A DNA stretch of 64,000 nucleotides from Chthoniobacteraceae bacterium. Lineage in GTDB: Bacteria > Verrucomicrobiota > Verrucomicrobiia > Chthoniobacterales > Chthoniobacteraceae. Shown one piece after another: positions 7,295 to 50,639 of this stretch. A program made the position numbers and the translations under genes. The stretch lies in the NCBI GenBank assembly GCA_947476255.1, contig CANJPY010000011.1, positions 1 to 64,000 on the forward strand, read 5' to 3'. The notes below the pieces were generated by a model. That model searched no databases. It was not told the origin of the DNA and was given only the letters and a program-made list of their open reading frames with translations. The stretch's first letter is position 1. Each line of letters begins with the position of its first letter.

Positions 7295-9577
7295 ATGTTG
7301 TCTTCCCTTCTACGTCTCCTCGGCCTCGATTCCACCGCTTCCATAGAGCGCGTGACGGACTGGATCTGGCGTGCCACTTCCCCCCTGCCCTCCTGGTTGC
7401 TCTGGCTGCTGATCCTCGCAGGACTCACCGCCGCCTGCCTCAATTTTCTGCGCCAGAACGTCATGACACTCGGCACGCGCGTGCTTCTGGCCGTCACCCG
7501 CGTGGCGGGAGTCGCCCTGCTGCTCCTCATGCTTTCTCAAATGGAGCTCGGACTCACCTTTGAGCGCACCCTCAAACCAACCGTCGCAATCCTCACCGAC
7601 ACCTCCGCCAGCATGGGCGTCGAAGACGCCGAGGGACCGGACGGCGCCCAAGGGACCACACGCCTCGCCGCCGCCCGTACCTTTGCAAATGTCCAACTCA
7701 AAGCGCTCGAGGAGAAAGCCGACGTCGTCCGGTACAACTTCGACTGGCGTCTGGAAGCTTTCCAACCCGATGCCAAAGCGCAACGCCCTACTCGCATCGT
7801 AGAGGCTGTCGCAGAAACCGCCCGCCGCGAAAACGATTTGCGCGCGATCGTGCTGCTTACCGATGGGAACGACACCGCTGGGGACAAGGGTGAACTGCTT
7901 GCCCCGCTCCTCAAGGCGCGCCAGTTGCCCGTTTTTCCCGTGGTCTTTGGCTCCGCTCAAGCCCCCAAACTTGCCCGGGTCAAAATCAACAGTGCGGCCG
8001 GATACGTGCGCCTGGGCGACGAACTGCGGGTGGCCGCAACCGTCTCGGCCAGTGAACTCGGCGAGCAGACAGTGCGTGTGCGCTTAATGGAAGACGGCCG
8101 CCCGGAGCCCCTTGCGACGCGTGAAAACGTGCGCCTGGGCAGCGAACCCGTGGACGTTGCCTTCGTCATCAAGCCGGAACGCGCGGGCGAAAAGAAATAC
8201 AGCGTGGTTTTGGACGGGGTCAAAAACAGTGTGAGCCAAAGCCTGCAGGTGGCGGAACATACGGTTAGCGTGCTCGACTCCAAAATCCGCGTCCTCTATC
8301 TCGATATTCCAAGGGATGAGCGCAAACTCATCGGACAGTGGTTGGCGCGCGATCCGGTGGTGGATCTGGCCACGCTGACGATGCTCCCCAAGGGCGGTTG
8401 GTACGCGCAAGGCGCTTTGCACCATAAAAATGCGGGCGAAGGACTCCCGGGCGCTGAAGCAGACCTGTACAAATACGACATCATCCTTTTAGGGGACATC
8501 CCGCGCTCCTACTTCCGCGAAGGCGGGGACGTTTCGGAAACAAAAATGCAATGGCTCGCGGAGTTTGTAAGCAGACGCGGAGGCGGGTTGGTGACGCTCG
8601 GCGGCCGCAATGTCTACGCGGCAGGGCAGTATCAGGACTCTGCACTCGCCCGGCTTTCTCCCTTTGTTATTGAAGCAACCAACGACCCCCAAGTCCCGAA
8701 ACCGTTCAAGCTTACGCCGACAGTGGCAGGCCTGAGTCATCCTTTGTTTTTGCTCGAAGCAGATCCCGCCGCAAATCGGGAAGCGTGGTTTGACCTCCCC
8801 ACGCTGGATGGCTGCAACCGCGTGGGCAAAGTAAAGCCCGGAGCCAGCCTGCTTGCGGTGCGTGACACGCCGGAAGGCCCGCTGCCTCTCATCGCAGTGC
8901 AGAGCGTGGGCAAAGGGCAGGTACTCGCCTTGGCGGCCGACACCACCTGGCGCTGGGAAATGATGCGTCCCGCTGTGGGCGAAGACTACTTCCGTAAATT
9001 CTGGGGCAATGCCATGCGCCAACTCGCTCCTGATCCACGCGTCGAACCGGATCGTCCGCAAATTCTTCGCCAACAATCCTCCGCCACAGTTGGACGCAGC
9101 ATCACCTTGTCCACCCGCCTCGTCGACTCCGTCTACCAGCCTGTGCGCGGCGCGGAGATTGTGGTGAAGGTCACCAGTCCAACCGGGCGTATCACCCGTT
9201 ACCTGCCCCGCGACGGACGGGATTCTCCGGGGCTTTACGAATATGAAATTGCCATCGACGAGGCCGGAGACTGGCAGGTGGATGTCACACACAAAGACAA
9301 AACCGTCACAGAAAAGATCACGGCAGGCACGGGGCTGGAGGAACTTGAAGACACACGCGCGAACCTCCCAGCGATGAGGGACTTCGCGCAAGCCACTGGC
9401 GGGCGTGTTTTCGCTTCGGCAGAGGCCTCGACGCTGTTGGAAGCCCTGGACCTTACCCCACGCAGAGTTTCTGAGTCCGCGGTAGTCGCCGTGTGGAACC
9501 TTCCGCTAACCATGGCGCTGATGATTGCAGTCGTTTGCCTGGACTGCTGGCTGCGCAAACGCAGGGGGATGGTTTAA
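7295..9577 (+). CDS. vWA-domain / glutamine amidotransferase-like membrane protein
   Basis: N-terminal TMs, MIDAS ILTDTSASMG, GATase-like SRRGGGLVTLGGRNVYAAGQY, C-terminal TM. Confidence 0.8.
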   Translation: MLSSLLRLLGLDSTASIERVTDWIWRATSPLPSWLLWLLILAGLTAACLNFLRQNVMTLGTRVLLAVTRVAGVALLLLMLSQMELGLTFERTLKPTVAILTDTSASMGVEDAEGPDGAQGTTRLAAARTFANVQLKALEEKADVVRYNFDWRLEAFQPDAKAQRPTRIVEAVAETARRENDLRAIVLLTDGNDTAGDKGELLAPLLKARQLPVFPVVFGSAQAPKLARVKINSAAGYVRLGDELRVAATVSASELGEQTVRVRLMEDGRPEPLATRENVRLGSEPVDVAFVIKPERAGEKKYSVVLDGVKNSVSQSLQVAEHTVSVLDSKIRVLYLDIPRDERKLIGQWLARDPVVDLATLTMLPKGGWYAQGALHHKNAGEGLPGAEADLYKYDIILLGDIPRSYFREGGDVSETKMQWLAEFVSRRGGGLVTLGGRNVYAAGQYQDSALARLSPFVIEATNDPQVPKPFKLTPTVAGLSHPLFLLEADPAANREAWFDLPTLDGCNRVGKVKPGASLLAVRDTPEGPLPLIAVQSVGKGQVLALAADTTWRWEMMRPAVGEDYFRKFWGNAMRQLAPDPRVEPDRPQILRQQSSATVGRSITLSTRLVDSVYQPVRGAEIVVKVTSPTGRITRYLPRDGRDSPGLYEYEIAIDEAGDWQVDVTHKDKTVTEKITAGTGLEELEDTRANLPAMRDFAQATGGRVFASAEASTLLEALDLTPRRVSESAVVAVWNLPLTMALMIAVVCLDCWLRKRRGMV

Positions 9578-11419: not shown

Positions 11420-12270
11420 AACATCCCGTTATTTCCGGAATTCCCGCCCTTCAAAATCTCACCACAAACAGCATGCGCGTTCTAGTATTCGCTGTTGGAA
11501 CAATTTGCGTTTGCTCTTTGGACTCCCATGCCGGGTCTTGGGCCGAGCGCACTGGGAAACTCAATCGCACCGAAGTTTCCGCAGAGGATGCCAAGAACCG
11601 TGGCGCCGATGACGACAAGGACGCTAGAAACAAGGTGTGTGTGCGTAGCATTAAACCCGCAATGCCCGGGGTGGATTGGAACACTGACCCTTCCGCCATT
11701 CCCTACATGATTTACCAGATCGGAAAACGCACCGACCTGCCCACCTACACGCGCACGGATGGTCTGGATATCGGCTCGGATGAACTCTTTGAGAGCACAC
11801 TCATCTACCTCACCTCGCACGGCCGCTGGAGCTTTAATGAAAAAGAAACAGAGAACGTGTCCCGCTGGCTCGAACGGGGCGGCACCCTCCTGCTAGACGA
11901 TTGTTACCTGCGCGGCAGCGCCTTCGCAGACAGTGTCCGGCCCGAGGTCTCCAAAATGATCCTGGGCTGCGAACCACGCATGCTCCTCAAAGACGACCCC
12001 ATCGTCTCCGACAGCTTCCGCATGGTTTACCCAACTCCCTGGCCGGGTGAAGCCAATTTCGAAAACCGCACCTGGCAGTACTTCCTGTGCCAGAATCGCC
12101 CCGCCGTGTTTTTCAGCCCCAACGACGACGGTTGCGGTTGGGAAATCAGCTCCCCTCCCAGCGCCTCCAACCCCATCGGCGAAGGAATCGGCCACGGCGG
12201 CGACAACCGCCAGCGCGAAATCATGTACCAGTGGATGACCAACTGGTTGCTGTTTGCCTACACGCATTAA
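11416..12270 (+). CDS. DUF4159 domain secreted protein
   Basis: Signal peptide; IYLTSHGRWSFNEKETENVSRWLERGGTLLLDDC typical of DUF4159. ATGA overlap with upstream gene. Confidence 0.8.
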   Translation: MKHPVISGIPALQNLTTNSMRVLVFAVGTICVCSLDSHAGSWAERTGKLNRTEVSAEDAKNRGADDDKDARNKVCVRSIKPAMPGVDWNTDPSAIPYMIYQIGKRTDLPTYTRTDGLDIGSDELFESTLIYLTSHGRWSFNEKETENVSRWLERGGTLLLDDCYLRGSAFADSVRPEVSKMILGCEPRMLLKDDPIVSDSFRMVYPTPWPGEANFENRTWQYFLCQNRPAVFFSPNDDGCGWEISSPPSASNPIGEGIGHGGDNRQREIMYQWMTNWLLFAYTH

Positions 12271-40108: not shown

Positions 40109-41959
40109 TCAAAGCGCAATCTTTCGAAGTGCTGTGTACCCCTGCCCAGAAGAACTTTCTGAATCTGAATTCGCTTTCTCGAGATACGCCCGCCATCCGC
40201 CGAAATGAGTGATATCTGTTGCCCCCTCCAGAGCGGCAGGTTCGCACAAGAAGCCTTTTACCGTGGAACCATCAAAAAGATTTACGCTCCCAATCACCAT
40301 GGGCGATGGAACCTCAGCGACGAAAGAACCGAATGCTTCCGGGGTCATCGACCAAACCTCCAAATCGATCCCTTTGCCCCGCCCGCCTGCTTCCCGCACG
40401 AGCCCGGGCTTGGGTGGCAGCGTATTTGCGAGGGCGAAAAGATGATAGTTCCTTGCCGTGCGGCTCGCTTTGATGAATTGCGCACCGCGTGAGGTGAGCT
40501 GCCAGTTTAAGGGCTGGCCGGTTAAATGCGCACCCACAACCGCCAATAAAACAGATTCTCGCACCGGAGTTTCCACGTCAGGCTGATCCACGATGAGCGC
40601 CTTGGTTATCCCAAGTGCCCCCCCCGCTGATTTGTGCATTTGATCCGAAAACGCAAGGAGGGCACGGTCGTAACCAGCTGGGGCAATGAGTGTGACACCA
40701 AAGGGAAGACCACGCGGGCGTATTCCAGCGGGGACAGCCACGGCGGCAAGATCGAGCAGATTGACGAAATTCGTGTAGAAGCCGAGGTTTGAATTCAACG
40801 CGACGGGTGCGGCGGCAATTTCTTTGTGTGTGTAAATTGTCCCGGTTGTCGGCAGGAGCAACGCATCCATTTTTGCCCATTCGACACGGGTTCGGGCCTC
40901 TAGAACTTTGAGTTTATAAGCAGCGGCGAAGACATCCACCGCTTTGTATCGTTCGCCGCCAGCAATGATAGAACGCACTGTGGGGTCTATCTGCGCCGCG
41001 TCGCTTTCGATAAAAGAGCCAACAGCATGCAAGCGCTCCGCAACCCAAGGCCCCTGATACAGCAAAGAAGCCGCCTCGCGGAAAGGTGTAAAATCAATTT
41101 CAACCAAGCGTCCTCCTACTTCCAACACTCGCTCCTTCGCCCTTTTGAAAAGGGCTTCGGCAGCGGTATCACCGAAAAACTCGCAAGCCCCGCCCACGGG
41201 AACGCCAATAGTCGGTTTTTGAGGAAATGCACGCTGCGGCATTTCTCGTGAAAACGGTTCTTGTGGATCCAGAGCGGCGGCCGCGGCAAATACAACACCA
41301 GCGTCGTGGCAGCTTCCCGCAAAGATGGAGACGCAATCCAAGGACCGACACGCAGGAAAAACGCCTCGTGTGCTCAGTAAACCAAGCGAAGGTTTGAGCC
41401 CAACAATCTGGTTGAATGCCGCCGGTACACGTCCAGAGCCAGCTGTGTCTGTCCCAAGCGCAAATGCGACCACCCCTGAAGCGACCGCCACGGCTGAACC
41501 TGAACTTGAGCCGCCCGAAATGTACGCCGCATTAAACACTGACGCGCAGGCACCATACGGGGAGCGGGTGCCCACCAGTCCTGTCGCAAATTGATCCATG
41601 TTCGTCTTTCCAATGGGAATGGCTCCGGCAGCAATCAAGCGTTGGACAACCGCCGCAGAACCCTCGGGTTGGAAGGCAAAAGACGGACACGCCGCCGTCG
41701 TAGGCACCCCAGCCAAATCGATGTTATCCTTGATTGCGAACGGGATTCCATACAGAGGAAGCTTCTCGATCTGAGTAGGATCCAAACGCCTTGCGTAGTC
41801 CAAAATAAGCGCCTCGTCTAAAAGTGTGATCCAAACGTTAGGCTGTTTTGCGACAGCGACGCGGCGCAAACTTTCCAAAGCAATCTCCTCCGGCGATGCA
41901 CGGTTTTCACGGTAGATCTGGCGCAGATTGGCGAAGGTAAACACGGCTTTTTCGATCAT
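40109..41959 (-). CDS. atzF: Allophanate hydrolase
   Basis: Amidase signature GGSSSGSAVAVASGVVAFALGTDTAGSGRVPA, IKDNIDLAG; C-terminal AtzF-type domain (GAHLTGQPLNWQLTSRGA...); adjacent to carboxylase. Confidence 0.92.
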   Translation of the reverse strand: MIEKAVFTFANLRQIYRENRASPEEIALESLRRVAVAKQPNVWITLLDEALILDYARRLDPTQIEKLPLYGIPFAIKDNIDLAGVPTTAACPSFAFQPEGSAAVVQRLIAAGAIPIGKTNMDQFATGLVGTRSPYGACASVFNAAYISGGSSSGSAVAVASGVVAFALGTDTAGSGRVPAAFNQIVGLKPSLGLLSTRGVFPACRSLDCVSIFAGSCHDAGVVFAAAAALDPQEPFSREMPQRAFPQKPTIGVPVGGACEFFGDTAAEALFKRAKERVLEVGGRLVEIDFTPFREAASLLYQGPWVAERLHAVGSFIESDAAQIDPTVRSIIAGGERYKAVDVFAAAYKLKVLEARTRVEWAKMDALLLPTTGTIYTHKEIAAAPVALNSNLGFYTNFVNLLDLAAVAVPAGIRPRGLPFGVTLIAPAGYDRALLAFSDQMHKSAGGALGITKALIVDQPDVETPVRESVLLAVVGAHLTGQPLNWQLTSRGAQFIKASRTARNYHLFALANTLPPKPGLVREAGGRGKGIDLEVWSMTPEAFGSFVAEVPSPMVIGSVNLFDGSTVKGFLCEPAALEGATDITHFGGWRAYLEKANSDSESSSGQGYTALRKIAL

Positions 41960-41966
41960 AACTCGG

Positions 41967-44900
41967 TCAGTACTTTGAAAATTGAATCGTCTCCTCAGAG
42001 TTGGTCACAAGAACCAACAACGTCTGCCCCGGTTCAGTCCGAGCCCCCTTGGCGCACAGGATTTGCTGAATCCGACCTGCACAGGGTGCGCAAAGCGTTG
42101 TCTCCATTTTCATGGATTCGAGCACCACCAACTTCTGCCCAATCTCTACCGCCTCCCCCTCGTTCACAAGCACCTCCCAAATACTCCCTGGCAAATGCGC
42201 ACGTACAGGAATTGCGCCCTGTGGCAGTTCGAACTCAACAGGCTTTACCTCTTGCTCGGGAACAAAATCCACCACATTTTGCCCAGCCTCCTCCCAACGC
42301 TGGCGTTCTTCTGAAAACGCCCGCCGCTGCGACTCGCGAAACGCCTCGATACCAGAGGCGTTTTGTTCCAAGAACGATTGATATTCGCTCAGGCGAAAGG
42401 TGCCCTCCTCCACCCTCAGTTGAAAACGTCCGGTGAGGAAATCCTCGCGCTGCTTGAGCAAAGTGTCGGCACTGACGGGGTAAAACCGGATTTGATCGAA
42501 GAAACGCAGCAACCAGGGCTTCCCCGCGCGGAAATCTGGCGTCGTGCGATGCGTGTTCCAGACCTGCACCGTGCGGCCAACGAACTGGTAGCCCCCCGGT
42601 CCTTCCATCCCATAAATGCACATGTACGCGCCGCCTATGCCCACTGCATTCTCGGGCGTCCACGTGCGAGCGGGATTGTATTTTGTCGTCACCAAACGGT
42701 GCCGAGGATCAAGCGGCGTCGCGACTGGCGCACCCAGATAAACGTCGCCCAATCCGAGCACGAGATAGCGCGCGTTCAAAACGATCTCTCGCACCTCCTC
42801 TATACTCGAAAGTCCATTCATACGTCGGATAAACTCCAGGTTGCTCGGACACCACGGAGCATCAGGACGTACGGACTGCATGTACTTCTCAATCGCAAGC
42901 TGTGTGGACGGGTCGTCCCACGAAAGCGGTAAAAAAACCGTTCGGGAAGGGACTTCGATCGCATCCAAACTCGGCAAGCCTGCTTCGGCTGAAAGTAGAG
43001 CTTCCATCAAGACCCCAATAGAGATCACGCGCGAATCGTAGTGGATTTGTAGCGATCGGATACCCGGAGTCAGGTCGATTACGCCCGGTAGAGGATGGCG
43101 CTCGAGCCACTGCATCAGGGCATGGACGCGAAACCGCAGTGCCAAATCCAAGATCAACGGTCCGTATTCGACGAGGAGATATTTATCTCCCGCTCGCCTG
43201 TAGCACACCGAAGGAGTGTTCTTGTCTGGCGCGAGGGTCCACTGAACGGCATCTTCCACCGGTAAAACACAGCGAGGAACTGACTGTGAGGCCACGGCGG
43301 GTTCCAGAATTCCAACTTCTTCATCCTGCTCTCTCTCCGAAGCATTTGCCTGTGCGAGTGTGACCGGGTAAAAACGCACCGTGTCGCCCGGTTTGAGCTG
43401 ACCTATTTTCCAGAGTTCGCTTTGGACGATACAACAGGGACAAACAAATCCCCCCAAACTCGGTCCATCAGGCCCCAAAATAATGGGCATGTCGCCTGTG
43501 AAATCGATGGCACCCACAGCGTACGCGTTGTCGTGAATATTTGAGGGATGCAAGCCCGCTTCTCCGCCATCAGTTCTTGCAAACTGGGGCTTCGGACCGA
43601 TCAACCTGACACCTGTTCGGTTGGAATTGTAGTGGACCTTCCAATCCGTGGTGAAAACCATCTCGATGTCCTCGGGCGTGAAGAAGTCGGGAGCGCCGTG
43701 CGGTCCGTATAAAGCGCCTATCTCCCAGTGATGAGTGTATTTGGGGACGAGTCTTTCATCCAAAACTGGTGCGTCAGTCCGTGCTGTAAGCGATGTGCTC
43801 AAGTGCAGCACGTCTCCGAGACGCAACGCACGTCCTCCGTGACCACCAAACTTACCGAGTGTAAACGTCGCCCGACTGCCGAGATAAAGCGGGGCCTCAA
43901 ATCCTCCCTGTACCGCCAGATATGCCCTCGCACCGGACCCATTCACGGCTCCCATAGTTAAAGTGCCGCCCTTCGGAACGCTCACGACTTTCCAGCGCGG
44001 CACCGCCTCGCCGTTCAATGCCGCGCCCATGTCGGCCCCAGTGAGAACGATGCTGCAGGCGACATTAAATCGCAACGTCGGGCCAGTCATCGTGATTTCC
44101 AAGGCAGCATCCGTGTCGGCATTCCCAAGCAGACGGTTGCCAAAACGAAACGCCAGTCCGTCCATCGGACCCGAGGGCGGAACGCCTACGGCCCAATAAC
44201 CAAGGCGACCGGGATAGTCCTGCAGCGTGGTTTGGGCGCCGCCTTCAAGAACGTCGACGGAGTTCGGTTCGTACGACAAGGACCCCAGAAACGAGGTAGT
44301 CACATCGCCGCGCGCAAAAGTCTCGGAAGCGACGACGACTCTTAAGTATCCCAGATTTGATTCTAGTCCGTCGAACGCGGCATTTCCCAACGCAGCTTCC
44401 ATGCGGGAAATCGCTTCCGCACGGTCCTCCCCGAGCACGATGATTTTTGCGAGCAGCGGATCGTAATACGGCGTCACCTCGGTGCCGCTCTCCACCCAGG
44501 TTTCGCTGCGCACCGCCTCGGGCAGACACACACGGGTCAAAAGTCCGCAGCTCGGCTGGAAGTTCTTGCTGGCGTCCTCCGCGTATACACGAACCTGAAT
44601 GGAGTGCCCCTGCGGGGAATGGATGTAATCATCCAGAAAAGAAGAATCGCCTGCAGCAAGACGCACCATCCACTCTACAAGATCAATGCCCGTGACCGCC
44701 TCCGTGACGCCATGCTCCACCTGCAGGCGTGTGTTCACCTCCAAAAAATAAAACGAGCCTGAATCGGCGTCGCACACAAATTCCACAGTTCCCGCCGAGC
44801 GATAGTTGACCGCCGCCCCCAACCGAATCGCAGCCGCGGAAAGGGCTGAGCGTTGCTCGCTCGAAAGCCCGGGAGCTGGCGTCTCTTCGACCACTTTCTG

Positions 44901-45605
44901 GTGGCGCCTTTGTGCCGAACAATCTCTTTCCCCAAGCGACACCACCCTCCCTTGACCATCGCCAAAAATCTGCACCTCAATGTGTCTCGCTCGTGCCACA
45001 TACTTTTCGAGAAAAAGCCCTGATTCCTTGAAGTTACTCGCACTGAGCCGCTCAACGGCATCAAAGGACTCTTCAAGTTCCCCGTCATTCCGGCACACCC
45101 GCATGCCAATCCCGCCACCACCCGCCGTGCTTTTGAGCATCACAGGGTAGCCGATGAGGGCAGCCTCAACCAGTGCATGGGCTGCGTTCCTCAAAATACC
45201 GGATCCTGAAAGCAACGGAACCCCGTGCTCGGCCGCAATTTCCCGCGCGGTATGTTTAAGTCCGAATGCACGCATCTGTTCCGGCGCCGGTCCGATAAAA
45301 ATTAAACCGGCACCTTCGCAGGCTTTTGCAAAGTCTGGATTCTCGCTCAGAAATCCGTATCCAGGATGCACGGCCTGGGCCCCCGTTTTGGACGCCACCT
45401 CAAGGAGGCGTTCGACGTTGAGATAGCTTTCGGAAACCGCAGAGGGCCCCAGCAAAACGGCCTCATCGGCATCACTAACGTGAAGCGACTGCGCATCGGC
45501 CTCAGAAAAGACGGCTACGCTGGATACCTCCAACTTTCGGAGGGTACGCGTGATGCGTCTGGATATGGCGCCACGATTGGCGATTAGAACCTTGGAAAAC
45601 ATCAC
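41967..45605 (-). CDS. Biotin-dependent urea carboxylase or guanidine carboxylase
   Basis: Biotin carboxylase N-term ([17 protein letters not shown]...), KipI/KipA-like central region, biotinyl motif [10 protein letters not shown] at C-term. Confidence 0.93.
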
Positions 45606-46243
45606 GGCCAGATAAGAATGCGCACAGGCGTCGGGTGATAGGCGTTGCAGGGGTTATTGAGCTGCGGGCAGTTGGAGATGAGACAAAGCACGTCCATTTC
45701 AGCCCGCATTTCTACGTAGCGTCCGCTGCTGGAAACGCCGTCTTCAAACGTGAGCCCGCCGTCCTCGGTAACGGGAACGTTCATGAAAAAATTAATGTTG
45801 TGCGTGATATCACGCTTCGTCCAACCAGGTTGCCACTGGCGGATTCCGCGCAGAAAACTGTCACGGCAAGCGTGCATCGAGCGTTTTTCAAGAGCGTATC
45901 GCACCATATTGCTTTCGCAGGAGCAGGCACCGCCGAGGGTGTCGTGTCTGCCGCAGGTGTCAGCGGTGATGGTCAAAAGAGCATTGCCTCGTGTAGACAT
46001 GAGCTGGGTCCCTGCGCCAAGATAAAGACTTCCCTGCGCACGGATGGTGTCCTGAGCGCTATACCGCTCCGCAGGATCATGAGCATTGTAGAAAAGCGTA
46101 TCAGCGGCCTGATTGCCTTCCAGATCGACAATGCGCAACGTCTGACCTGCCTTGATTCCCTGCATCCAAGGCTCCCCGGCGGGAAGAGTGTATTCATAGA
46201 CTGCGTCAACGGGATGCAACAGACTTTCAACAAGATGGCTCAT
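45602..46243 (-). CDS. Urea carboxylase-associated protein 2 (DUF1989; carboxyguanidine deiminase subunit homolog)
   Basis: [52 protein letters not shown]. Confidence 0.9.
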
Positions 46244-46965
46244 AGGAAATAGCGGCGAGTGATTTCAAAGCCACGTGTATTTTCCGGGCAAGAGACGCGG
46301 CAGACGTCCTGCTCGTTTGGCGGCGGAGAACTCCAGACGGTTAACTGGACCGGCTGCGGAGCGTAATGCGGCGAGGTATCCAGCGGATGAACGCACGTAT
46401 TTAAAATCACAAGCGTGTTCATCTCCGCACGCAGGTCCACATGCATCCCTGCTTTGGAATGGCCCTCGTGAAACTGCAGTCTCCCCTCTCGATCTGCGGT
46501 CACCTTTGCAAAGAAATTCACGTTCATGGCAAGGTCCCGTTCATCCATTCCATACTTGCCAAGCTCCGTGAGAAAATTATCGCGCGCATTGCGCCGCATC
46601 TCGTTCCGGGCCTCCTGGTAAGTCCGATGTCCGTATCTGGAAGCGACACCCGACTCGGTCGACCAGCCCGACAGCGGATCGTGCCACCCACAGGTGTCTT
46701 CGGTAATCGATACGAGAATCCGGCCCATGTCCGAGTAGAGGCAATGTCCAGCGGTCAGGCGCGCGGTGTGCTGGCACTTGAGCGTGTCGGGAAGATTGAG
46801 GCGCTCGTTTAAAAGCTCGAAGTTATAAAAGAGCGCGGAAACATTGCCAGAGTCGCCCAGCGATTCGAGTCGCAGAGTCGTGCCTCGTTTGAGGACATGC
46901 GACCAGTTGGCTCCGGAGGGAACCAATTCGGAAAAACGGATCAGTCGGGGGTCGATTTCAGCCAT
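46240..46965 (-). CDS. Urea carboxylase-associated protein 1 (DUF1989; carboxyguanidine deiminase subunit homolog)
   Basis: [64 protein letters not shown]; 4-bp overlap with UAAP2. Confidence 0.9.
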
Positions 46966-46968
46966 GGT

Positions 46969-47418
46969 TCAATAGATTGGAGGAAGCAGTGTGGTAGTCA
47001 CGTTGAGATGCCCGTGCTTGACGCCTTTACAGGAAATGAGTTCGTCCGCGATGTCTTTCAGTCTCTCTCCTGGAGCCTGTGCAAGAATTACTTCCAAACT
47101 GTGATTGTGTTCCAGATGCACCCGCTGCGAGGTGATGATTTCCTTGAGGTACTGATGCTGGATCTTGATCAGGCGGCTTTGGAGGCCGGGTTTTGCGTGG
47201 TCATAAATGAGTGTAATCGTGGCAGCCATCACCTCCTTGCCGAACTCCTGCGCGTGCTGGACGAGTTGTTCACTAATCATCTTCGAAATGGCATCGGATC
47301 GACTCGCATAGCCCCGCTCCTCCACCATCGCGTCCAGCTTCACAAAAAGTGGTTCTGGCAAGGAAATGCTGATGCGTGCAGCAGGTGTGGCTTTGAGAGG
47401 TTTGCCCTTCATTCTCAA
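46969..47418 (-). CDS. NikR-like ribbon-helix-helix regulator with altered nickel-site residues
   Basis: RHH region ISISLPEPLFVKLDAMVEERGYASRSDAISKMI; NikR-type C-terminal domain ITLIYDHAKPGLQSRLIKIQHQYLKEIITSQRVHLEHNHSLEVILAQAPGERLKDIADELISCKGVKHGHL. Confidence 0.88.
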   Translation of the reverse strand: MRMKGKPLKATPAARISISLPEPLFVKLDAMVEERGYASRSDAISKMISEQLVQHAQEFGKEVMAATITLIYDHAKPGLQSRLIKIQHQYLKEIITSQRVHLEHNHSLEVILAQAPGERLKDIADELISCKGVKHGHLNVTTTLLPPIY

Positions 47419-47460: not shown

Positions 47461-47488
47461 ATGTGAAGAACAACTTTTTTCTTCACAC
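47461..47488. promoter_or_regulatory. Candidate NikR-like operator 1 (ATGTGA-N16-TCACAC)
   Basis: 28-bp dyad; internal perfect 9-bp arms TGTGAAGAA/TTCTTCACA; 43 bp upstream of the NikR-like start. Confidence 0.55.
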
Positions 47489-47548: not shown

Positions 47549-47576
47549 GTGTGAGAATCCGTGTGAATCCTCATAC
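47549..47576. promoter_or_regulatory. Candidate NikR-like operator 2 (GTGTGA-N16-TCATAC)
   Basis: One mismatch to the E. coli NikR operator pattern GTATGA-N16-TCATAC with identical spacing. Confidence 0.6.
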
Positions 47577-47718: not shown

Positions 47719-48687
47719 ATGAAACTAAAAAGCACCCTTGCACTCCTGTTAAGCCTCCTCGCCGCAGGAGGTCTTCAGGCCGAACCGCTAAAAATTGCGT
47801 ACTCCGACTGGCCGGGTTTCACCATCTTTGAACTCGCCAAACAGAAAGGCTGGTTCAAGGACGCTGGGCTCGACGTTGAGCTCGTCTGGTTTGAGTATCT
47901 TCCCTCCATTGACGCCTTTTCCGCGGGCAAGGTGGATGCGGTGACCATTGTGGCAACCGATGCGCTGGTGACCGGCGCCAACGGGGCCAAGAGCAAGTTC
48001 GTTGCACTCCTCGACTACAGCGATGGCAGTGACATGATCATCGGCGCGCCCGGAATCAAGTCCATCAAGGATCTCAAGGGTAAGAAGGTCGCGGTAGAGA
48101 CGACGCTGGTGGAACACCTGCTTCTCCTGAAAGCGCTGGAGGAAAACGGAATGACTCAGTCTGATGTCGAGCTCGTGAATACAGCGACAGATAAGATGCC
48201 CGAAACGCTGGCATCTGGAAAAGTTTCAGCCGTAGGCGCGTGGTATCCAATTTCTGGCAATGCGCTCAAACAGGTGCCGGGATCGAAGGCGTTGTTTACA
48301 AGCGCGAGTGCCAAGGGGCTGATCTACGATGTGCTCGCGGTGAGTCCAAGCAGTTACGGCAAACACAAGGAAGAGTGGTCCAAAGTCGCGGGGATTTACT
48401 ACGAGTGCGTGGATTACCTGAAAGATCCGAAGACCAAGAAAGACGCGATCAAAATCATGGCGGCCAAGGTCGGGGCGGACGCCACTGATTACGCCAAAAA
48501 CATTCCCGGCACACACTTCCTCACTCTGGAGGAGGCGAAGAACGCAGTAAAGAAGGGTCAGGGGCTCGACTCCATCTATGGGTCCTTAACCGTGGGAGAC
48601 AAATTCAACATGGATAACAAAGTCTATAAGAGCTCTCAAAAGCCGGACAGTTATGTGCTTCCAAATTTGATCAACGACTTGAAATAG
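47719..48687 (+). CDS. ABC transporter substrate-binding protein (NMT1/SsuA/TauA-like; urea carboxylase-associated)
   Basis: Signal peptide; LKIAYSDWPGFTIFELAKQKGWFKDAGLDVELVWFEYLPSIDAFSAGKVDAVTIVATD. Confidence 0.9.
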   Translation: MKLKSTLALLLSLLAAGGLQAEPLKIAYSDWPGFTIFELAKQKGWFKDAGLDVELVWFEYLPSIDAFSAGKVDAVTIVATDALVTGANGAKSKFVALLDYSDGSDMIIGAPGIKSIKDLKGKKVAVETTLVEHLLLLKALEENGMTQSDVELVNTATDKMPETLASGKVSAVGAWYPISGNALKQVPGSKALFTSASAKGLIYDVLAVSPSSYGKHKEEWSKVAGIYYECVDYLKDPKTKKDAIKIMAAKVGADATDYAKNIPGTHFLTLEEAKNAVKKGQGLDSIYGSLTVGDKFNMDNKVYKSSQKPDSYVLPNLINDLK

Positions 48688-48693
48688 CCGTCT

Positions 48694-49737
48694 TTGATGA
48701 CCAAGGCGCACCGCGATTGGTTGGGGCTGAAGAAGGAACTGCCACGCAAGCGGCGGGTGCAGCTCACGTTGCTCTCCTTTCTGGTGCCACTTGCATTGTG
48801 GTGCGTCGTGAGTTACGTACCGTGGGTTTGGCACCCGTTGGTCCGGGTGACCACCCCCGGGGAGGTGGATTACTTCACCGAAGACATGGACGTCCCGCGG
48901 GGAGACTTCGCGACTGAAAGCCGCAAGGCCAGAGACAGAGGACAGACGCCTCCCGAGGGATTCCGGGTCAATCCCGTATACCTCCCTGCTCCACACGCGG
49001 TTGCGCGTGCCTTTGTCAGCGCCTTCCAAACGCCGCCCCGTCTTCCAAACGAACCCTGGTTGCACCAAAGTCTCGGACACAGCATACGCACCATCGTTTT
49101 TGGGTTTCTGGTTTCCTCGTTGCTCGGGCTTCCCTTGGGTATCTTCTGTGGCACCTACCGGTTTGCTGCGAGGCTGCAGGAACCGTTCATCGAGTTTTTT
49201 CGATATCTTCCCGCGCCCGCATTTGGGGCATTGTGCGTGGCGGTGCTCGGGATCGACGACGCCCCCAAGATCGCAATCATTTTCGTGGGCACCTTCTTTC
49301 AACAGGTGCTGGTGATTTCAAATACGGTGCGCAAAGTCGATCCTGCGCTCATCGAGGCCTCCCAAACCCTGGGTGCAAAGGGGTGGCGATTGGTGCTCCG
49401 AGTGATCATTCCGGCCTCCATCAGCGACATTTACACAGATATGCGCATTCTTCTCGGATGGGCGTGGACCTACCTTATTGTGGCGGAGGTCGTTGGGACC
49501 ATGTCGGGAATTACTTTCTTTATCAATCAGCAGGCCCGTTACCGCAACTTTGACAACGTTTACGCTGCAATCGCGATGATTGGGATCATTGGGTTCTCAA
49601 GCGACCTTGTGCTTTCATGGCTGGGGAACGTGCTGTTTCCGTGGAAACGGAAAACAAAAGTTGAGAGTCGGGTTTTTGGGCGCTTGTGGCGCAGGGACAG
49701 TTCCACGACTTTGGCGCCAACGGCACACACACCATGA
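48694..49737 (+). CDS. ABC transporter permease (NitT/TauT type)
   Basis: Permease motif [48 protein letters not shown]; multiple TMs. Confidence 0.92.
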
Positions 49738-50639
49738 TTGCCATTGATCTGCCTCCCGAGGAATACCTGCAGCAGCGCCCACACGTCTCCGAGCGCTTTG
49801 CGCGCATACGCAAGAGGCCGTTGATCTTGAGCGTGCGTAATCTCAGAAAAGATTTTGGCGGTGACGACCAACCGCGCACCGTGTTTGAAGGAGTCACGCT
49901 AGATATTCACCGGCGTGAATTTATCTGTGTCATTGGTCCCTCTGGCTGCGGGAAGTCAACACTGGCGCGCATCGTGGCCGGGTTGGACGAGGCCAGCGGC
50001 GGCGAGGTCCTTCTCGATGGCGTACCCATAAACGGACCGGGGCCGGACCGCGGCATGGTTTTCCAAGGTTACACGCTTTTCCCGTGGCTGACGGTAAAAG
50101 CAAACGTCATGTTCGGTCTGGAAATGGGCGGGCAGGCGCGGAGCATCGCGGAACAGGAGGCGCGGCAGTGGCTGGACATGGTGGGTTTGAGCAGCTTTGA
50201 AAATGCTTATCCTCAGGAGCTTTCAGGCGGCATGAAACAGCGGGTGGCAATCGCAAGGGCTCTTGCGAGCGGTCCACGGATCCTCATCATGGACGAACCC
50301 TTCGGTGCATTGGACGCTCAGACACGCGCACAAATGCAGGGCTACCTATTGCAAATATGGCGCAAGGTCGACGTGACGATTTTGTTCATCACCCACGACC
50401 TCGACGAGGCGACGTATCTCTCCGACCGTATCCTTGTGTTGGGCGCAAATCCTGGGCGCGCTGTGGAACTCATTGAAAATCCAGTGCCGCGACCACGGAG
50501 TGTGGACCAGTTTCAGTCTTCGGAATTCCTTGCATTAAAACGGCGTCTGGAGCACCACATCCATCCGCCAGTTGAGACGGACGGGGTGGATCTTCTTCCG
50601 ATGGTAAAGCTAACACATGCCGGTGATGAAGTGGAGTGA
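49734..50639 (+). CDS. ABC transporter ATP-binding protein (NitT/TauT type)
   Basis: Walker [10 protein letters not shown], signature [15 protein letters not shown], Walker [17 protein letters not shown] overlap with permease. Confidence 0.95.

Follow-up and report, generated by a model that had tools for sequence, protein, structure and literature searches.

Guanidine sensing is, to our knowledge, so far known only for RNA riboswitches. The guanidine-I and guanidine-II riboswitches control operons that encode an importer, the deiminase CgdAB and a carboxylase, and the model loci of the pathway formed by guanidine carboxylase, CgdAB and allophanate hydrolase are controlled by riboswitches (PMC12186494, PMC11410670). 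In the published pathway (literature cited in PMC11410670), UAAP1 and UAAP2 are the carboxyguanidine deiminase subunits, and guanidine carboxylases are marked by two Asp residues, 1330 and 1584 in K. lactis numbering (PMC11410670). NikR, described in E. coli, P. horikoshii and H. pylori, carries an RHH domain fused to a NikR_C domain, acts on nickel uptake and is called the sole metal-regulated RHH protein in a review that gives the E. coli operator as GTATGA-N16-TCATAC (PMC7055735). The stretch of Chthoniobacteraceae DNA analysed here (64,000 nucleotides of contig CANJPY010000011.1, hereafter the window) encodes a regulator that resembles NikR in its architecture, fold, operator half-sites and N16 spacing, but lacks the Ni ligand set and Asp34, has instead E91, Q102 and an LPP tail, and has guanidine metabolism rather than nickel uptake as its predicted target. 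Judged from sequence, what sets it apart is that the fold and operator of NikR are retained although the nickel site is gone. The genes around it belong to the guanidine pathway by family and signature residues, and in place of a riboswitch they have the NikR-like gene as the first of their operon:

46969-47412, minus strand: NikR-fold regulator of 147 amino acids from the ATG, with an RHH DNA-binding half and a NikR_C sensor half (Pfam RHH_1 and NikR_C; PDB NikR by sequence and fold)
46240-46965, minus strand: UAAP1 (DUF1989), a subunit of carboxyguanidine deiminase as judged from its family and the published assignment (TIGR03425, 331.9 bits, cut-off 205.95)
45602-46243, minus strand: UAAP2 (DUF1989), the other carboxyguanidine deiminase subunit (TIGR03424, 338.5 bits, cut-off 284.7)
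41967-45605, minus strand: guanidine-type carboxylase, annotated family urea carboxylase (TIGR02712; Asp701 and Asp954 equal K. lactis 1330 and 1584)
40109-41959, minus strand: allophanate hydrolase (TIGR02713 and PRK08186, both above cut-off)
47719-48687, plus strand: substrate-binding protein of the divergent ABC importer, a probable guanidine importer (NMT1 family; same gene in relatives)
48694-49737, plus strand: ABC permease (BPD_transp_1)
49686-50639, plus strand: ABC ATPase (ABC_tran), whose true start is probably later than the listed GTG

The leftward operon thus runs from the regulator through UAAP1, UAAP2, the 'urea' carboxylase and the allophanate hydrolase, and the divergent rightward operon is the ABC importer. 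Both Asp marks (D701, D954) are present in the carboxylase and both deiminase subunits score above their cut-offs, which argues that the locus serves guanidine and not urea; the carboxylases linked to related regulators are likewise of the Asp type wherever the motif is covered. The importer binding protein scores 129.9 against the cut-off of 333.9 of TIGR03427, the uca-linked binding-protein family, and is therefore of a divergent type. Neither nickel nor other metal-handling genes were found among the neighbours at the locus with Pfam and NCBIfam and, judged by the guanidine neighbours and the single perfect operator only, nickel import or nickel enzyme genes are not among the predicted targets of the regulator.

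The open reading frame at 46969-47418 (minus strand) matches RHH_1 and NikR_C (Pfam; E 2e-26), so that the domain fusion typical of NikR is present. Translation probably starts at the ATG at 47412, with AAGGGA 7 nt upstream; the TTG at 47418 adopted in the preliminary description would add two residues. The protein passes the cut-offs of the NCBIfam NikR equivalogs PRK04460.1 and PRK02967.1, and scores 84.8 with the stricter nikR equivalog TIGR02793, whose cut-off is 175.45. An AlphaFold2 model (mean pLDDT 86.8; four plasmid rows were left out of the input) has NikR crystal structures as its top fold matches among all PDB entries, and many chains of solved NikR domains can be superimposed on its C-terminal domain at 0.8-1.6 A. 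A single scan of the genome contigs gave one relative.

The sensor half keeps the GVKHGHL end and loses the nickel site. Alignment to E. coli NikR (phmmer against 1q5v; window residues are numbered from the ATG at 47412) places the changes in the following stretch:

47098-47157, minus strand: former nickel-site stretch, with H86 (E. coli 76), R97 (87), H99 (89), E101 (91, a clade signature), H104 (94) and S105 (95), assigned by phmmer and the clade alignment

His76 and His89 are thus conserved, His87 is replaced by Arg, Asp94 by His and Cys95 by Ser, leaving H, R, H and S at the four ligand positions. These are the residue calls that had been made by eye in the preliminary description, and its proposal that the known square-planar His3Cys nickel site is unable to form can now be extended from this protein, with its incomplete ligand set, to every member of its clade. 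The acids of the K+ site, Glu30 and Asp34, are Asp and Lys (Lys44) in the regulator, and just 10 of the 57 clade members have Asp at position 34. Chance or misalignment of the ligand positions is ruled out by phmmer together with two MAFFT alignments. A pseudogene or an isolated case of decay is ruled out as well, the orthologues being intact, linked and under new constraint. The suggestion that the carboxylase route stands as a nickel-free alternative to nickel enzymes does not fit this organism, since the same genome encodes a urease; an organism without nickel enzymes is ruled out on the same ground. In two relatives, Rfam 5_ureB_sRNA matches (L133, 2412-2704; L089, 860-1191) suggest that urease coding DNA lies a few kb from the guanidine operon.

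UAAP1 is found above its cut-off in 45 of 388 Verrucomicrobiota genomes, and a NikR_C gene belongs to the same locus in 38 of these 45. Novosphingobium, Sphingobium and Asticcacaulis share the arrangement; the layout in Acinetobacter is different. From the guanidine-carboxylase loci of Verrucomicrobiota, sphingomonads, Asticcacaulis and Acinetobacter we collected 57 linked NikR-like proteins, and ligand loss extends throughout the set: neither Cys95 nor the complete H76/H87/H89/C95 set occurs in any of them (0/57). The patterns at 76, 87, 89 and 95 are -H-- (29 proteins), H-H- (9), ---- (8), HHH- (7) and others (4), His persisting at 87 in 39 and at 89 in 17 members. In contrast, NikR_C proteins unlinked to guanidine genes have all four ligands in 44 of 44 cases and then in 53 of 55 more, the two exceptions being a second copy with HHYC and one protein from a separate degenerate lineage, whose seven remaining proteins had been left out; with that lineage excluded the total is 97/98. 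On these alignments, ligand loss is a mark of the clade tied to guanidine carboxylase loci and not a peculiarity of the window protein. In a quick IQ-TREE analysis (short search, 161 columns) the 57 linked proteins and one further protein, L153, form one clade with an SH-aLRT of 99, which supports a single origin without proving it. L153 (G178) is a clade remnant of about 112 amino acids that has lost the RHH half in a genome devoid of UAAP1, suggesting that the regulator decays once the pathway is lost. Novosphingobium resinovorum (L174) carries the clade regulator twice, at 7986-8519 and at 11537-12034, with about 3 kb between the copies. The separate degenerate lineage (D/N76, R87, Ser95) is made of L146-L152 and L235, found in eight genomes of the phylum, seven of which share a genus code. 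It is unlinked to guanidine genes, and at each of the four loci inspected it is adjoined by, or lies near, a gene that has a prepilin-type N-terminal methylation motif.

Other residues have become conserved in the clade. Gln102 (Arg or Lys in canonical NikR), Leu108 and a C-terminal tail of the LPP or IPQ type, where canonical proteins end otherwise, are found in 57 of 57 members, Glu91 (mostly Asp or Ser in canonical NikR) in 53 and Glu81 in 46. By strand alternation, residue 91 would lie on the same side as the former ligands 87 and 89, and a carboxylate there would suit guanidinium, so that Glu91 may form part of a pocket. A His or Cys conserved in the whole clade is not seen at any position, an argument against a replacement metal site common to its members. 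The subclade of the window protein is His-rich (VHLEHNHS) and metal binding may occur within it.

The DNA-binding half appears to have kept its code. Aligned intergenic regions of close orthologues preserve the half-sites of GTGTGA-N16-TCATAC and leave the spacer free, and two putative operators of the E. coli type separate the divergent operons of the window:

47549-47576, no strand assigned: predicted operator 1, GTGTGA-N16-TCATAC, the only perfect GTRTKA-N16-TMAYAC match of the genome
47461-47488, no strand assigned: predicted operator 2, ATGTGA-N16-TCACAC, with one mismatch, enclosing a perfect 9-bp dyad at 47462-47487

The 5.15 Mb genome contains exactly one perfect site, between these operons, and operator 2 is among its one-mismatch matches. 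Over the 57 linked loci (794 kb, of which 4.8% is promoter), exact matches number 28 in promoters and 0 elsewhere, and 53 promoter sites against 4 elsewhere are obtained, in 40 loci, when one mismatch is allowed. The half-site was widened from GTRTGA to GTRTKA after the first matches, GTRTGA alone giving 10 against 0. In the same loci, spacers of lengths other than 16 showed no comparable enrichment, and no such site is present at the operon promoters of guanidine loci that lack the regulator; these two controls rule out a mere AT-rich dyad. In many loci the operators lie near the regulator's own start codon. Similar sites lie close to some canonical NikR genes of the phylum, so the DNA code has probably been inherited. 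The operator and the target genes are, as sequence predictions go, well supported. No sigma-70 consensus promoter, by which repression might be judged, was found in the intergenic region.

The regulator is found mostly where guanidine riboswitches are not. No known guanidine riboswitch was detected at 36-55 kb of the window, so the usual riboswitch control is lacking at this locus, and no guanidine-I riboswitch in its genome or in 49 others of the phylum. The Verrucomicrobiota guanidine loci likewise yielded none of the known guanidine riboswitches. Proteobacterial loci that lack the regulator (Azospirillum, Caballeronia, Serratia, Pantoea, Rhizobium, Thioclava) have guanidine-I in 6/6 cases, most of them guanidine-II as well, and the sphingomonad and Asticcacaulis loci that have the regulator carry a guanidine riboswitch in 0/6. 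Strict mutual exclusion is ruled out on both sides: two A. baumannii loci have both the regulator and a guanidine-I riboswitch, with the operator 34 bp upstream of the aptamer, before UAAP1, and seven Verrucomicrobiota guanidine loci have neither the regulator nor a known riboswitch. The complementarity seen in most of the sampled proteobacterial loci, which are few and related, is therefore suggestive. Most of the regulator-less Verrucomicrobiota loci, namely L112, L114, L118, L120, L121 and L129, combine two UAAP2-like genes with the lack of a known riboswitch; three open reading frames upstream of such loci were compared with Pfam and none is a regulator.

We propose, with a probability of about 0.6, that the product of this gene acts as a local regulator on the operons for uptake and degradation of guanidine, and that guanidine or a close pathway compound relieves its repression. 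The RHH half would read the ancestral NikR operator at the two sites between the divergent operons, and the metal-free regulator would bind both and repress both operons, its own gene included; the rebuilt NikR_C domain would bind guanidine or a close pathway compound instead of nickel, and the bound guanidine would release the regulator, so that cells supplied with guanidine would produce the importer, the carboxylase, the deiminase and the allophanate hydrolase. This scheme builds on the architecture, the ligand loss, the conservation and specificity of the operator and the linkage established above; from these we infer DNA binding, repression rather than activation, and guanidine as the ligand, release by an inducer being the simplest logic. 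The effector is probably guanidine or a related compound, guanidine itself being the most likely one because nickel would be unable to trigger the protein through the known site and because the regulator stands where other lineages use riboswitches. The broader idea that a nickel sensor gave rise, apparently on a single occasion, to a guanidine-sensing protein now found in Verrucomicrobiota and some Proteobacteria, a counterpart of the guanidine riboswitches, has in our estimate an even chance of being right. It would provide the first transcription factor that binds guanidine, and a regulator of the NikR fold whose ligand is organic. The clade is a concrete candidate for this missing factor, its operator and target operons being defined and hosts being in culture. 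It also makes a clear case of a metalloregulator in which the DNA code is retained and the metal lost, and the names 'nickel-responsive regulator' or 'CopG family' given to such genes beside uca genes are probably wrong. CdbA, an RHH protein that binds c-di-GMP (PMC7156744), sets a precedent in that an RHH DNA-binding protein can serve as receptor for a small molecule; its ligand and biology are different. The open-access literature yielded no paper that ties loci for guanidine or urea carboxylase to NikR or CopG proteins; a description may exist elsewhere.

The same operons and operators could answer to another nitrogen signal, such as urea, carboxyguanidine, allophanate, another guanidino compound or a metabolite of general nitrogen status. 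In A. baumannii, a regulator and a riboswitch that both respond to guanidine at one step would duplicate each other, so the protein might bring in a separate signal there, and an operator before a 2OG-Fe(II) oxygenase/SMR operon in Acinetobacter sp. NCu2D-2 hints at methylated guanidines. However, the regulator takes the place of guanidine riboswitches in Sphingomonadales, Asticcacaulis and Verrucomicrobiota, and the linked carboxylases are of the guanidine and not of the urea type, so we consider this reading unlikely, if far from negligible. The preliminary description had placed another metal on a par with a nitrogen metabolite; the nitrogen metabolite is the part that we prefer, and the metal loses its equal standing because no ligand set is common to the clade while the operator, the neighbourhood and the signatures are conserved. 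A regulator that binds a different metal through H86, H99, H102 and H104 would agree with the His-rich window subclade, with the three ligand His kept in seven clade members and with a copper-bound NikR domain among the solved structures, but all four ligands are missing from eight members and the locus has no metal-handling gene, which makes this improbable.

A ligand-independent, autoregulated repressor, or a sensor half that is only an oligomerization scaffold, seems slightly less probable still: operators do lie near the regulator's own start codon in many loci and sensor positions vary widely across the clade, but the near-invariance of the new sensor residues (Q102, E91 and the tail) speaks for a retained specific function. 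Finally, the view that the protein continues to regulate in response to nickel, through a rearranged site, is very hard to sustain. The two PRK equivalogs, the urease of the organism and the NikR fold would be in its favour, but Cys95 is absent from all members, the TIGR02793 score falls far below its cut-off, no nickel gene is present at the locus, and the single perfect operator of the genome sits at the guanidine operons.

The NCu2D-2 site (L177, 11329-15502) is an N16 operator with one mismatch that precedes genes for an ABC permease and ATPase, the 2OG-Fe(II) oxygenase, an unnamed 293-amino-acid protein and the SMR transporter, an operon which, by annotation only, recalls methylguanidine demethylation genes (PMC12508155) and guanidine export.
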